Assembly: GCA_014859645.1 (NCBI GenBank)
Contig: JACUTV010000014.1
Coordinates: 1 to 35,192 of the forward strand
Direction: 5' to 3'
DNA: 35,192 nucleotides
From: Campylobacterales bacterium
Lineage (GTDB): Bacteria; Campylobacterota; Campylobacteria; Campylobacterales; Campylobacteraceae
Shown here: one piece after another, positions 6,278 to 35,192 of the stretch
Layout of the letters: each line of letters starts with the position of its first letter
How positions within the stretch are numbered: position 1 is the first letter of the stretch
The notes under the pieces: generated by a model
Database searches by the model: none
What the model was told of the DNA's origin: nothing
Seen by the model: only the letters and a program-made list of their open reading frames with translations
Made by a program: the position numbers and the translations under genes

Positions 6278-7919
6278 GCGTTGGCTTTTGAGGATTTTGG
6301 CCTCGCCTTTTAAAAAACGCACCGTCATTGGCGTAACACTGCTCGCCTTTGTGGGTTCCCTTTGGATGTTTCCTTCCCAACTGGTCAAAGCCAAAATGCT
6401 TCCGGGTAAAAGTGCCGACACCTTTTCGGTGTATGTGGATTTGCCCAAAGGGAGTTCCCATGTGCAAACCTCAGCGGTAACCCAATGCGTCACTTCCTTA
6501 CTCTCCCTTGAACCTCATGTGCGTTCTATGAGTGTGTATGCGGGCATGGGCGCACCCCTTGATTACGCGGGGCTTGTTAAAGGTTCGGGGTTAAAGCGAG
6601 GTGAGCATGTGGCGGAGATTGTCGTTAACCTTACGGATAAAACGACGCGCGAGGAAGCCAGTTTTGCGTTAGTCCACCGCGTGCGCCCTGTGGTGCAACA
6701 CGACTGCGAACCTCTTGTGGAAGGAACGCGCATCAAGATGGTCGAAGAACCCGCTGGCCCGCCTACCCTTGCGGCCATTGTGGTGGAACTGTACGGGGAA
6801 AATGACGCGCTATTGCGGGAGTTAAACGCCCACGTCCAAGAAGTCTTGCGCGGCACGCCTGGCCTTGTGGATGTGGACACCCTCGAAGAAGCCGCCCATG
6901 ACACCTTTACCCTCGAAATAGACGCGGCGCGCGTACTGAGCACGGGCGTTGACCTCAAACAAGTACACGACATTGTCTATCTTGCGTATGAAGGTACTCA
7001 GGTTGCTGCCCAAAACCGTGGGGATTCTTACACGCAAGTGCCTCTGTTTTTGCGCCTTGACGCACCCCATACCTCCTTACATGTAAAGAGTGCTAACGCC
7101 TTGCACGCACGCCTTGCTTCCTTGCACCTGCACACCAATACGGGCGCGTTGGTACCCGTGAGTGAACTGGTGCGCATCGTGCCTAGTCGCTTGGCACCTA
7201 CGCTCTTTTCCAAAAACCTTCGGCGGATGCACACGGTGGTGGCCGAAACCGACCTTGTCTCCCAAGTGTACCCTTTGTTAGAAGCCAGAAGCCGCCTCAA
7301 AGAGGTGCTTGGCGCTTCGTACACCATCACCAACGGCTCGCTTTTTGACTTAAAACTCGTCCACAAAGCAACGGGCGAACCCATCGAACTGGTGTGGGAT
7401 GGGGAGATGAAAGTGACTATGGACACCTTTGCTGACCTTGGCGGCGCGTTTATTGCCGCGCTTGTGGTTATCTTTTTGCTGATGGTGGTCTATTACAAAA
7501 GTTTTGCGTTGGGCGGCATCATCTTGCTGGGGAGTTTTTTGTCTATCATCGGCGTTATTGTGGGGCATTGGATTATGGATATTTTCACCCACACCACCTT
7601 TTTCCTTACCGCCACGTCGCTCATAGGCTTCATCGCCCTTATGGGCATTAACTCGCGCAATTCCCTGCTCATCATCGATTTTGCTAAAAGCATGATGGAC
7701 GCGGGAATGCCCAAACGCAACGCCATCGCCCACTCAGCGGCAACGCGGGCAAAGCCTATTTTCCTCACAGCTATCACCGTCGTACTCGCTAGCGCGATGC
7801 TTGCCCTTGACCCCATCTTTGGAGGCCTTGGCGTCGCGCTCATCTTTGGAACCATGGCTTCGGTGATTGTCTCGTTGGTATTTGTGCCGGTGTTGCTCGA
7901 CCAAAGCCCTGCCATCTAG
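6267..7919 (+). CDS. RND efflux pump, C-terminal half as a separate protein
   Basis: 550 residues, read from ATG 6267 after a strong AAAGGAGG site; an upstream frame extension to 6201 has no ribosome site. It begins with TM7 (about 20-40), then the second porter domain, then TM8-TM12 from about residue 395. TM10 reads INSRNSLLIIDFAK, where AcrB has the relay lysine (K940) in AAKNAILIVEFAK; here it is arginine. Together with the upstream half the total is about 1076 residues, the normal size of one RND monomer. It carries one exact TTACATGTAA (7077), read Leu-His-Val-Lys. Last gene of the efflux operon, followed by a hairpin terminator. Substrate unknown. Confidence 0.85.
   Translation: MKFERWLLRILASPFKKRTVIGVTLLAFVGSLWMFPSQLVKAKMLPGKSADTFSVYVDLPKGSSHVQTSAVTQCVTSLLSLEPHVRSMSVYAGMGAPLDYAGLVKGSGLKRGEHVAEIVVNLTDKTTREEASFALVHRVRPVVQHDCEPLVEGTRIKMVEEPAGPPTLAAIVVELYGENDALLRELNAHVQEVLRGTPGLVDVDTLEEAAHDTFTLEIDAARVLSTGVDLKQVHDIVYLAYEGTQVAAQNRGDSYTQVPLFLRLDAPHTSLHVKSANALHARLASLHLHTNTGALVPVSELVRIVPSRLAPTLFSKNLRRMHTVVAETDLVSQVYPLLEARSRLKEVLGASYTITNGSLFDLKLVHKATGEPIELVWDGEMKVTMDTFADLGGAFIAALVVIFLLMVVYYKSFALGGIILLGSFLSIIGVIVGHWIMDIFTHTTFFLTATSLIGFIALMGINSRNSLLIIDFAKSMMDAGMPKRNAIAHSAATRAKPIFLTAITVVLASAMLALDPIFGGLGVALIFGTMASVIVSLVFVPVLLDQSPAI
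7077..7086. repeat. TTACATGTAA palindrome inside the RND C-half gene
   Basis: Exact copy, in frame as Leu-His-Val-Lys in the second porter domain. Confidence 0.8.
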
Positions 7920-7942
7920 GCAAAAAGAGTCGTACTATCGTG

Positions 7943-7983
7943 GCTTACATGTAAGGCGTGTGCTTTACATGTAAGCTCTTTTT
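7943..7983 (+). terminator. rho-independent terminator built from two TTACATGTAA copies
   Basis: GCTTACATGTAA (7943-7954) and TTACATGTAAGC (7965-7976) pair as a perfect 12-bp stem with a 10-nt loop, followed by TCTTTTTTC. It sits 23 bp after the efflux operon stop and before the rsmG promoter. Both arms contain an exact copy of the repeated palindrome (7945-7954, 7965-7974). Confidence 0.75.
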
Positions 7984-12572: not shown

Positions 12573-13544
12573 TTATTGCTCCACAAGTATTTTCATTTGG
12601 TTGTCGGAAAAATCCACATAAATCTCTTTGTTGCCGCGGTATTGATAATTTTTGGTTTCGTAGGTTTGATGGTACGAAACACGAAACAGCGGTCGCCCTT
12701 CTTCGTTAGGGTAAGGCACAACAGCCAAGTCATTAAACAAAATAGTCTTGTCTTCATTTCGGGAAAAAATCGTGCGCTTCATACGGGTAAATTCTTCCAA
12801 ACGCATCCCATCAAACCGCCTAAAATCTTCATGGTAAAACTTCATATAGCGGTTTACATCGCTGTATTTCCAAGCATTGCGCCACTCAAACACTTGGGTC
12901 AACAACGCCACGATGGTCTCTTTTTCGACCTTGGGTTCGCCCGCTTCTGAAATCAACGTGAGGGTTTTTTTCTCTTGCACTTTGGCGTCAAACATCCCCA
13001 GCAAATCGTTGGTCATGACCACACAGCCCCGTGTGTTTTGGTCGTACCGTTGAGCGCTGTTGAGGGGATGTCCGTGAATCCAAATCCCGTAACCGTCTTT
13101 TCCCATGCGCTTGTCCATGATGTTGGGATAAGAAAGCGCAAAGGCAATCTGCCCGTAAAAAGGGTCGCTTGGCACAAAACGACGCACCACTTCATACACG
13201 CCTACGGGGGTTTTCAAGTCACCCTCGCGCTGTTTGTCTCCTCCGATGCCGGTGATAACAGGATGCTGCATTTGCAACACAGGATTGCCTTTTTCAAACT
13301 CAAAAACCTTGAGTGTGTCGGCCGTTTTATCCACCAACACCACCATGGGCTCGCTCTCATAATACCCCAATGACACATCTTTTTCGCCGATAAAGGCGTC
13401 CCAATGTTCACGGCTTTGTAACATCTCTTCTGCTTGTTTTTCAAGGGCAGCAATCCCTTGTGTTCGGTACGTTTCCGCCAGAGGAATAGCCCAAAGATGC
13501 ACCCACACAACACTACTAATCAACAACGCTCTAAACACCGACAT
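12573..13544 (-). CDS. pgp2: L,D-carboxypeptidase with YkuD domain (Pgp2/Csd6 type)
   Basis: 323 residues, close to the size of Campylobacter Pgp2 and Helicobacter Csd6, which trim tetrapeptides to tripeptides in the wall and set helical cell shape. N-terminal signal segment (1-23). The YkuD site reads IHGHPLNS (H157, H159) and TRGCVVM with the catalytic cysteine C174. The C-terminal 115 residues fit an NTF2-like domain, as in Pgp2. The ATG at 13544 is almost touching the ribosome site AAGGA; a GTG two codons later (13538) has better spacing and may be the true start. First gene of an operon with a small gene and alr. Confidence 0.85.
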   Translation of the reverse strand: MSVFRALLISSVVWVHLWAIPLAETYRTQGIAALEKQAEEMLQSREHWDAFIGEKDVSLGYYESEPMVVLVDKTADTLKVFEFEKGNPVLQMQHPVITGIGGDKQREGDLKTPVGVYEVVRRFVPSDPFYGQIAFALSYPNIMDKRMGKDGYGIWIHGHPLNSAQRYDQNTRGCVVMTNDLLGMFDAKVQEKKTLTLISEAGEPKVEKETIVALLTQVFEWRNAWKYSDVNRYMKFYHEDFRRFDGMRLEEFTRMKRTIFSRNEDKTILFNDLAVVPYPNEEGRPLFRVSYHQTYETKNYQYRGNKEIYVDFSDNQMKILVEQ

Positions 13545-13683: not shown

Positions 13684-13731
13684 CCTTTACATGTAACCCT
13701 TTGAAAACCATAGTGACATTTTCTAAAGCCC
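13684..13731. repeat. left copy of the ~47-bp direct repeat flanking the nuclease-like gene
   Basis: Two blocks match the right copy exactly: 13 bp (13684-13696, containing TTACATGTAA at 13687-13696) and 28 bp (13704-13731, from AAAACCATAG to TAAAGCCC). The blocks are separated by 7 bp here and 6 bp in the other copy. Confidence 0.9.
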
Positions 13732-13763
13732 AGCAAGAAGAAGAATAGTCTACCCAAAAGGCT

Positions 13764-15047
13764 TTAGCTACTTTTCATAATATTTTCTAATTTTTTAAAA
13801 TCATTTGATTGTATTGTGACATCCAAGATTTCAACTATTTCATTGATTATCCTCTTTATTTCTTCCGTAGATTTCTTGTATATGCTGTCATCTTTACCAA
13901 AATATACAACAGGGAAGTCTTCCCCCTCAATGAGGATTTTATTATTATCTTGAACCAGCCATCTTGTTTCTTTGAACTTTGTTTTTTTTATTCTCAAAAT
14001 GGTTGTAATGGATTTTTTTGCGCACAAAAAACATTCGCAGTAAAGTTGAAACTCGTAATCATGCCCTATTTGTAAAAATAAATACGCCCCGTTTGTTAAC
14101 TCTTTACACCAATACAATCCAACAAATCCATTACAATTTCTTTTGCTATTTGGCTTTCTGAGCCCCATAATCCACTCAATGTCATCTTCATCAAAGTTCC
14201 AATAAAAGTCTTCACCATTGTAATTCTCGAAACCTGCCAAAGCAGGCGATAATTTATCTTGTAATTCTTTATAAAATTGCATCTCAAACATAGCTTTAGC
14301 CCTTGGAAGCGCATTGGCAATGGAGATTGCTGTTTGCAAATTATCCTTTTGCATTAGTATGTCTGCTATTGCATTATTTTCCTTTTTTGAATTTTTGTTG
14401 CTAAGCTTTTCTAATGTTGTTAAATATTGATTCAAAATTATTTTGATATTTTCAAACTCAACCTTCTCGATGGCCTTTAACAACCAATCATATATATGCG
14501 TTTCGTAACTAAGCAGCTCAATATCATCACTTGTCAAACATTTGTGTAAAGATTGCTCACTTGGCATTTTTCCATCTAACGTTAGGTAGATTATTATGAT
14601 ATTTGAGAATTTTTCATTGGCTTTTGCTTTGTAGTATCTGTAAAGTTGCTTGTGTTGGTCTGGTGCGTAAATCTTATTTTCAATAACAATAGCGGTATTT
14701 CCTGATTCAATAGCAATGTCGATGTAGCTCAGATTCTTTTCCACAAGGTGAAATTGTTCTGTTTCAACTTTTGCTCTCTTGCAAAAACTATGCATATCCA
14801 CATGAATAGTTTCTATTTTGCTTTGCAGGGGCTCTAAGAGTAAAAAATGTTCTAAAAATAAATCTCCACAACCATGACTTCCACTTGGGTTTAAAAGTTC
14901 TGCCAAAAATTTTGAATGCCTTGTTTCAAGTGCTTCAATACCCAAGGTTGCAAATATATTAAAATCCTCGGATGGCTTTTGGCTATTTTTTATTTCCTCT
15001 ACGCCCACATGTATATCTCTTAGAAGATTATCAATTCTTAAATCCAT
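13764..15047 (-). CDS. PD-(D/E)XK nuclease superfamily protein (PDDEXK_4-like)
   Basis: 427 residues from an ATG preceded by GGAGA. The N-terminal part has HSKFLAELLNPSGSHGCGD (about 44-62), then the core YIDIAIES (D110) followed by IVIENKIYAPDQHKQLYRYY (about 120-139), giving the D...ExK catalytic set D110, E123, K125 and the family's trailing QL. The family holds predicted nucleases found as accessory or defence genes; the target of this one is unknown. Composition is very different from neighbours: bases 14341-14400 have 16 G/C of 60, whereas 16621-16680 in the nuo operon have 38 of 60. With the flanking repeats this points to transfer. Its minus strand lies next to the nuoA promoter region but points away from it. 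Confidence 0.8.
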   Translation of the reverse strand: MDLRIDNLLRDIHVGVEEIKNSQKPSEDFNIFATLGIEALETRHSKFLAELLNPSGSHGCGDLFLEHFLLLEPLQSKIETIHVDMHSFCKRAKVETEQFHLVEKNLSYIDIAIESGNTAIVIENKIYAPDQHKQLYRYYKAKANEKFSNIIIIYLTLDGKMPSEQSLHKCLTSDDIELLSYETHIYDWLLKAIEKVEFENIKIILNQYLTTLEKLSNKNSKKENNAIADILMQKDNLQTAISIANALPRAKAMFEMQFYKELQDKLSPALAGFENYNGEDFYWNFDEDDIEWIMGLRKPNSKRNCNGFVGLYWCKELTNGAYLFLQIGHDYEFQLYCECFLCAKKSITTILRIKKTKFKETRWLVQDNNKILIEGEDFPVVYFGKDDSIYKKSTEEIKRIINEIVEILDVTIQSNDFKKLENIMKSS

Positions 15048-15112
15048 CTTTGTTTCTCCAAAATTTTTACTTTGCTACTAATTGTACATATTCTCAACTT
15101 ACAGCTTTTCTG

Positions 15113-15159
15113 CCTTTACATGTAAGCCAAAAAAACCATAGTGACATTTTCTAAAGCCC
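15113..15159. repeat. right copy of the ~47-bp direct repeat flanking the nuclease-like gene
   Basis: Exact 13-bp block at 15113-15125 (with TTACATGTAA at 15116-15125) and exact 28-bp block at 15132-15159. It lies upstream of nuoA, in the region that should carry the nuo promoter. No convincing -10 box was found at 15160-15242; TACCAT at 15205-15210 is the best candidate and is weak. Confidence 0.9.
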
Positions 15160-15242: not shown

Positions 15243-15605
15243 ATGTCCTCAGAACTGCTTCTTGCTTCGCTTTCTCTTTTTTTCCTTGTCCTTTTACTTC
15301 CTGCCTTGTTTCTCGCCACTCAAAAGCTCGGCCCGCGCTCCTTGGGTAACCAAGCTAAAAACCTCACCTACGAAAGCGGTGTTACGGCACCCTATGGCAA
15401 GCCCAATGCGCCTGTTGGCGTGCGGTTTTACCTCGTGGCTATTTTGTATGTTATTTTCGCCATTGAGGTGACGTTTATGTTCCCGTGGGCCGTGAATTTG
15501 CGCACCCTTGGCACCTCTGGACTTTTTGAAATGTTTGCCTTTATCGGGATGCTGTTGGTGGGCTTGGTGTACGTGTACTGGAAAAAGGCGCTCACATGGC
15601 AGTAG
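15243..15605 (+). CDS. nuoA: NADH-quinone oxidoreductase subunit A
   Basis: 120 residues, three membrane segments, with the family motifs YESG (about 44-47) and [12 protein letters not shown]. It is part of the membrane arm at the quinone entry. The start at 15243 removes a non-conserved extension; its ribosome site is weak (AAGAG). Overlaps nuoB by 10 bp. Confidence 0.92.
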
Positions 15606-18226: not shown

Positions 18227-19449
18227 GATGCTCACTCATCAGCCGTCTGTTTTCCATCCCCGGTGCGCACACCCTAGAAGTTGCAAAAGCTAACGGACGC
18301 TACAGTTCCTTGTCTAGGCTCTTTTCTTTAACACCCGAAGCAGTGGTAGAAGAGGTAGTCAAAAGCGGCTTGCGCGGCAAAGGGGGTGGCGGATCTCCCA
18401 CGGGTGAAAAATGGCTTCTTATGCCTCCTCTTGATGGCAAACCACGTCACCTCGTCGTCAACGCCGATGAGAGTGAACCAGGCACCTTTAAAGACCGCCA
18501 AATCTTAGAATACGACCCCCACTTGCTCATCGAAGGTATAATCGCAAGTGCGTATGCTTTACATGTAAAGCACGCATACGTGTACATTCGGGGCGAATAC
18601 CACTTTTGGGCGGCACGCTTTGAAACAGCGCTCAAAGAGGCGTATGGGGCTGGCTTGCTTGGAAAAAGACTAGACATCACCTTGCACAGAGGCGCAGGAG
18701 CGTACATTTGTGGCGAAAAAACTGCCTTGCTTGAATCCCTAGAAGGCAAGCGTGGACACCCAAGACTCAAACCCCACACCAAAGAACCCGAGTGGCTTTT
18801 TGGACACCCAGCAGTTGTTAATAACGTCGAAACCATCGCTTCTGTTCCCTACATCATCGAACACGGCTTTGAGGCGTACCGCGCTTTTGGCACCCCCCAA
18901 AGTCCAGGCACCATGCTCTTTGGCCTTAGTGGTCACGTTACAAATCCTGGTATCTACGAACTGGCTTTTGGCACCTCTATGCAGTGGTTTTTGGACGAAA
19001 TCGGCGGGGGCGTGAAAGAGGGAAAAGCCCTCAAAGCCATTGTTCCTGGAGGCTCATCGTGTTCCATTTTAAAAGCCCAACACATTCCTAATGTGACGCT
19101 AGATTATGAATCCTTAAAATGTAGCAACTCTACCCTTGGTACAGGGGGTATGATTATCATGGATGAGACCGTCAGCATCCCAAAAGCGATGAAAAATCTG
19201 CTAGAATTCTACCACCATGAATCCTGTGGCCAGTGCACGCCCTGTCGTGAGGGCACAGGTTGGATGGATCGCATTTTGGCAAAAGTGCTTAACGGCCAAG
19301 GAAAACGCAGCGACATTGACTTGCTTTTGGAAATTAGCACCACCATGAATGGAAAAACCATTTGTGTTTTCGCCCCCGCAGTAGCAGACATGGCGGTGAG
19401 CTACATTCACGCGTTTCCCGAGGAGTTTTATGCCCTTTGCCCCAGCTAA
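18223..19449 (+). CDS. nuoF: NADH-quinone oxidoreductase subunit F
   Basis: 408 residues, the FMN and NADH binding subunit. FMN/NADH loop at 49-64 reads GLRGKGGGGSPTGEKW, followed by NADESEPGTFKDR (80-92), GAYICGEKTALLESLEG (159-175) and cluster N3 ligands C335, C338, C341 (SCGQCTPCREGTGW) and C381. In most NuoF the loop is GRGGAGF(P/S)TG; here the phenylalanine is serine (S58). The rest is orthodox. The start has GAGGAG upstream and overlaps nuoE by 4 bp. Contains a TTACATGTAA copy at 18559. Confidence 0.93.
   Translation: MRCSLISRLFSIPGAHTLEVAKANGRYSSLSRLFSLTPEAVVEEVVKSGLRGKGGGGSPTGEKWLLMPPLDGKPRHLVVNADESEPGTFKDRQILEYDPHLLIEGIIASAYALHVKHAYVYIRGEYHFWAARFETALKEAYGAGLLGKRLDITLHRGAGAYICGEKTALLESLEGKRGHPRLKPHTKEPEWLFGHPAVVNNVETIASVPYIIEHGFEAYRAFGTPQSPGTMLFGLSGHVTNPGIYELAFGTSMQWFLDEIGGGVKEGKALKAIVPGGSSCSILKAQHIPNVTLDYESLKCSNSTLGTGGMIIMDETVSIPKAMKNLLEFYHHESCGQCTPCREGTGWMDRILAKVLNGQGKRSDIDLLLEISTTMNGKTICVFAPAVADMAVSYIHAFPEEFYALCPS
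18559..18568. repeat. TTACATGTAA palindrome in nuoF
   Basis: Exact copy, in frame as Leu-His-Val-Lys within a variable helix region of NuoF. Confidence 0.8.

Positions 19450-32927: not shown

Positions 32928-35192
<2,265 letters not shown>

Follow-up and report, generated by a model that had tools for sequence, protein, structure and literature searches.

The spacer between pgp2 and the nuo operon in this genome is best read, on the evidence of its sequence, as the site of a single insertion of about 1.4 kb that occurred later than the split between two species of the genus and duplicated 28 bp of its target. The inserted DNA holds a nuclease-family gene and is accompanied at both ends by a short palindrome that recurs about a thousand times in the genome, and this palindrome is a more interesting object than the gene itself. 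We regard the insertion history as well supported, whereas the mechanism is one that we infer.

The window, that is, the whole stretch of 35,192 bp analysed here, belongs to a genome of 2.78 Mb (G000), and the sister species (G001) is the sole other member of the genus that was compared. The features of the locus are as follows.

12573..13544, minus strand: L,D-peptidase/transpeptidase-like gene of the left flank (named pgp2 in the first-pass annotation), an ORF conserved and syntenic in the sister species
13684..13696, no strand: left, resident copy of the palindrome, CCTTTACATGTAA, also present in the empty site of the sister species
13704..13731, plus strand: copy 1 of the 28-bp duplication, with one counterpart in the sister's empty site and no third genomic copy
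13732..15131, no strand: inserted DNA, 1,400 bp of 32-34% GC, delimited by its absence from the sister species and its base composition
13764..15047, minus strand: gene for a 427-aa PD-(D/E)XK nuclease-family protein, PDC-S26-like, from the ORF, profile matches and a D110/E123/K125 signature
15113..15125, no strand: right copy of the palindrome, CCTTTACATGTAA, which probably arrived with the insert, its spacer to the 28-mer being unlike that of the left copy and the empty site
15132..15159, plus strand: copy 2 of the 28-bp duplication, an exact match to copy 1
15243..15605, plus strand: nuoA, first gene of the nuo operon and right flank, an ORF conserved and syntenic in the sister species

Both species also have a second nuoA paralogue, about 40% identical (C93:51078-51392, L006, in G000; C6:21774-22094, L005, in G001), and two clusters of the complex-I type are therefore probable in the genus.

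The left repeat (13684-13731) consists of CCTTTACATGTAA, a 7-bp spacer, CCCTTTG, and the 28-mer AAAACCATAGTGACATTTTCTAAAGCCC; the right repeat (15113-15159) consists of CCTTTACATGTAA, a 6-bp spacer, GCCAAA, and an identical 28-mer. When re-derived, these positions agreed with the first-pass annotation, which had the anatomy of repeats and gene right and had correctly placed an AT-rich PD-(D/E)XK gene between pgp2 and the nuo operon; our analysis gives this gene about 33% GC and a match to PF14281. The GC fraction of the insert is 0.32-0.34, against about 0.50-0.55 in both flanks. What has to be revised is the view of the repeat as a single 47-bp unit. Its 28-bp part is unique to the locus and duplicated, but its 13-bp part is a copy of a genome-wide palindrome, one of about 1,080, so that sharing it is by itself no evidence of duplication. 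A search of the genome with the inner 26 bases of the 28-mer, allowing up to 3 mismatches, returned the two sites of this locus only. Confinement to two places is far beyond chance and rules out a commonly dispersed 28-bp repeat, the possibility that the first-pass annotation had named as fatal to its proposal. Because the genome has no other copy of the 28-mer, we read the pair as a target duplication from a single insertion.

Comparison with the sister species bears this out. At its pgp2-nuoA junction the gene is absent and exactly one copy of the repeat, CCTTTACATGTAACCCTTTGAAAAGCATAATGACATTTTCTAAAACCC, is present, which is the empty site that had been predicted for a related genome; it is thus not the case that all relatives carry the gene with both repeats. 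One repeat in the sister, together with a 28-mer unique to the locus, supports the view that the insertion duplicated part of its site. The left window copy matches the empty site throughout, in palindrome, spacer and 28-mer, whereas the right window copy matches in palindrome and 28-mer but differs in its spacer (GCCAAA instead of CCCTTTG). Because this spacer is A-rich, the right limit of the insert is uncertain by a few bases. The two window 28-mers are identical and the sister's differs from them at 3 of 28 positions, which indicates that the duplication is recent. If instead the gene and both repeats were ancestral, the repeats would have recombined in the sister and the gene would have been deleted, which would leave one copy, just as is found there. 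The gene might be lost when the two 28-mers recombine, although no such event was seen. Loss from the sister is the less likely course: the composition of the gene is foreign, and no close relative turned up in any related genome. The identity of the window 28-mers beside a diverged sister copy also speaks for recent duplication. We consider an ancestral gene highly improbable.

The insert contains one ORF only and hence, as had been noted from the start, no transposase, nor any other recombinase. In a profile search its 427-aa product matches PF14281 with E=1.2e-34 and 120.3 bits (cut-off 22.3), and it matches the PADLOC candidate PDC-S26 (PDLC04983) with E=6.5e-71 over residues 7-408, nearly the whole protein, no PADLOC cut-off being applied. 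The catalytic signature, D110 and E123-x-K125 followed by a Q..Y motif, is aligned in full-length relatives; the motif alignment used complete homologue ORFs and left out truncated ones. The protein matched no NCBIfam family and, by sequence, no solved structure, and its matches in PHROGs were at chance level only. A defence role for the product is plausible from the PDC-S26 match and from the neighbours of plasmid relatives given below, and a DNA-cleaving one would be a fair guess from what is known of the family. No close homologue was detected in the sister species, in 100 relatives or in 397 genomes of the phylum, and none that would reveal a donor in the genome contigs or viral contigs searched. 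Plasmids and one phage record yielded distant relatives only, below 45% identity; identities to relatives run from about 26 to 42%, the closest being about 42%. Neighbours of the three plasmid relatives inspected were HipA, reverse-transcriptase, HNH, phospholipase-D-like or WYL genes.

How the insert arrived is a separate matter. The first-pass annotation had proposed a passively or trans-mobilised element, in which case a recombinase or transposase encoded elsewhere would have moved the insert and the 28-bp repeats would represent either its attachment core or a target duplication of unusual length. A clean insertion flanked by a perfect 28-bp direct repeat, with a single repeat in the empty site and no transposase inside, has the appearance of such an element. 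However, no terminal inverted repeats were found in the insert, the 28-mer occurs at no other place in the genome, no long direct repeat like it was found at the other species-specific junctions inspected, and no mobile-element relative of the gene is closer than about 42% identity. This part of the annotation does not hold up well, and we consider mobilisation from elsewhere unlikely.

We are particularly interested in the palindrome, whose core is TTACATGTAA. The genome of the window has 1,084 TTACATGTAA sites and the sister species 1,059, a density of about 390-420 per Mb. In the sequence used for comparing the two species, it is the commonest 10-mer, with 354 occurrences in 0.87 Mb of G000 and 838 in 1.93 Mb of G001, where base composition predicts about 1.2 and about 3, respectively (an excess of about 280-fold in G001). 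A related count for CTTTACATGTAA gave 331 on each strand and 0 for the reversed control. Far over-represented across the genome, TTACATGTAA is like a highly iterated palindrome; in its distribution, with about 1,000 dispersed copies, enrichment at gene ends and retention between species, it also resembles an uptake sequence. Likeness to one or the other class is what we suggest, by analogy. No published description of the TTACATGTAA palindrome was found in the literature searched.

Some other families of the Campylobacterota have the palindrome at high density; most have next to none. Another genome of the same family, G012, has 804 sites although incomplete; six genomes of one genus (g31) in family f20 have 411-1,496, another f20 genus has 446, and two genomes of family f16 have about 370 sites. 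Ten relatives picked as palindrome-poor have 0-6. Named records with additional copies include Sulfurospirillum and Sulfuricurvum genomes. Where orthologous DNA is 76-92% identical, most copies have stayed the same and the next outward base often switches between C and T or G and A; sites that lack a copy are usually altered at several positions. Inner one-mismatch variants occur at chance level. Intergenic DNA has about 2 copies per kb, as against 0.3 in genes; copies are most frequent in the first 40 bp downstream of stop codons, and close pairs exceed expectation genome-wide at 13-30 bp. Copies in the window start at 2464, 2477, 2902, 7077, 7945, 7965, 9016, 10357, 13687, 15116, 18559, 24813, 29059 and 34819. 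Some lie inside conserved genes, such as the large ORF at 32928-35186. At 2464-2486, just beyond the ORF at 859-2460 and its stop codon, two palindromes stand in tandem where the sister has one, and at 18550-18590, within a nuo gene, a coding palindrome is extended to a longer inverted repeat, GTGCGTATGCTTTACATGTAAAGCACGCATACG, most of which the sister retains.

The palindrome is also found at the borders of other species-specific DNA more often than its distribution predicts. We aligned 589 kb of G000 with the sister genome and listed 29 length differences of more than 200 bp. A copy lies within 50 bp of 22 of the 58 borders of the longer alleles, where about 11 would be expected from length-matched intergenic points (18.7% per border, p=5e-4), and copies lie at both borders in 8 of the 29, where random intergenic pairs predict about 1.3 (4.6%, p about 1e-5). 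The strictest control, points 10-30 bp after stop codons, raises the rate to 23.9% per border and the p-values to 0.012 for single borders and 1.7e-4 for both; across controls the expectation for both borders is 1.3-1.7 of 29. Of 35 control 6-mers that are about as abundant between genes, none reaches 8; the highest, CTTTAC, reaches 7 and overlaps the extended palindrome. This word control rests on 6-mers because 7- and 8-mers gave too few words. Neither border has a palindrome nearby in 15 of the 29 length differences. The excess is good but not decisive evidence, because ORFs were simple longest-ORF calls, alignment ends are drawn to conserved words and one species pair was compared, and a shared preference of palindromes and tolerated insertions for gene ends may explain part of the association. 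Among the lowest-GC inserts, the nuclease gene (0.33) and a SAM-methyltransferase-like gene are bordered by palindromes on both sides and contain no internal copy, and a 3.4-kb insert with a GC fraction of 0.34 has one at one end.

The SAM-methyltransferase-like gene stands alone at C24:53292-54396 (L060) in G000, with a GC fraction of 0.39 in flanks of 0.51, and the empty site of the sister contains a decayed copy of the palindrome, TTGCATGTAA. At positions 7913-7981 of the window, 69 bp with two palindromes stand opposite about 10.3 kb in the sister, whose insert has palindromes near both ends.

These rates bear directly on whether the right-end palindrome of the nuclease insert has any meaning. 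The event may have been an illegitimate insertion of the ordinary kind that duplicated 28 bp, with a palindrome at the right end by coincidence, because about one-fifth of intergenic points lie within 50 bp of a copy. The control rates of 19-24% per border agree with this, as does the abundance of the palindrome after stop codons, where insertions are tolerated. On the other hand, the distance from palindrome to 28-mer is 6 bp on the right and 7 bp on the left even though the spacer sequences differ, and with the two copies in register to within 1 bp a merely chance proximity is not expected; moreover, palindromes at both borders are in excess even under the strictest control (8 of 29, p=1.7e-4). 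Coincidence is a serious contender, though we think it rather unlikely.

The reading that we favour, tentatively and as something short of probable, is a one-sided, palindrome-anchored joining of foreign DNA after transformation-type uptake, with the 28-bp duplication as its result. The incoming DNA would have carried its own palindrome beside the gene, ending in gene-CCTTTACATGTAA-GCC, and this CCTTTACATGTAA may have paired in register with the resident CCTTTACATGTAA. The right junction would then have formed in the A-rich spacer a few bases on, by a switch to resident sequence, and the left end would have joined without homology 28 bp downstream, which is why those 28 bp would stand on both sides. 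Of the two palindromes present today, one would have been brought in and the other would be resident. As read from the recipient sequence, the right junction lies in register at the 13-bp palindrome and the left junction is without visible homology. Such a process would be of the kind expected when DNA enters by natural transformation, namely homology-facilitated illegitimate recombination, and the palindrome would be its short anchor; an anchor of 13 bp is short for homology-driven joining, which counts against the mechanism. The palindrome itself would most likely be a genome-wide uptake or recombination signal, and the gene product would most likely be directed against invading DNA. All steps beyond insertion with a 28-bp duplication are ones that we infer.

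A broader proposal, which we think rather unlikely, is that TTACATGTAA serves several families of the Campylobacterota as a signal, so far undescribed, for uptake or recombination. Foreign genes such as this nuclease would then be gained preferentially where it occurs and would have its copies at their borders. If that were true, any gene adjoining the palindrome would become a cassette that can be exchanged although it encodes no recombinase. If we are right, Campylobacterota lineages such as Sulfurospirillum and Sulfuricurvum have a genome-wide palindrome, like HIP1 or an uptake sequence, that contributes to where the chromosome acquires accessory genes, among them defence-like genes. The function of highly iterated palindromes is a long-standing question, and palindrome-rich and palindrome-poor lineages, together with paired empty and filled sites, would make a role in uptake or recombination directly testable.

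Several known systems invite comparison. With a transposon or integrative element the locus shares a target duplication, here of 28 bp, and one copy in the empty site, but the window insert has neither recombinase nor terminal inverted repeats. With the PDC-S26/PF14281 family the gene shares a near full-length match and the D...E-x-K signature; it differs in standing solitary between housekeeping operons and in its identity of only about 26-42% to the relatives found. One-sided joining by homology-facilitated illegitimate recombination has been described for naturally competent bacteria (PMC3240628). As in that process, one end apparently lies at homology and the other elsewhere, and DNA is gained while recipient sequence is duplicated; the anchor here, however, would be only 13 bp. 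The DNA uptake sequences of Neisseria and Haemophilus resemble TTACATGTAA in having about 1,000 copies per genome, which lie in genes but are denser just after stop codons, and in forming close pairs and being common to related species; the chance-level frequency of inner one-mismatch variants of TTACATGTAA sets it apart. Nor are the established uptake sequences known to be perfect palindromes, as TTACATGTAA is. These sequences and HIP1 (GCGATCGC), the highly iterated palindrome of cyanobacteria, are the nearest concepts to TTACATGTAA, and both are treated in one study, which links HIP1 to site-specific and illegitimate recombination and to the insertion of small repeats (PMC4390886). TTACATGTAA differs from HIP1 in sequence (with a central CATG), in phylum and in strongly favouring intergenic space and gene ends, but like HIP1 it is a perfect short palindrome that occurs hundreds of times per Mb, within and between genes, and is high in some lineages and lost in their relatives.
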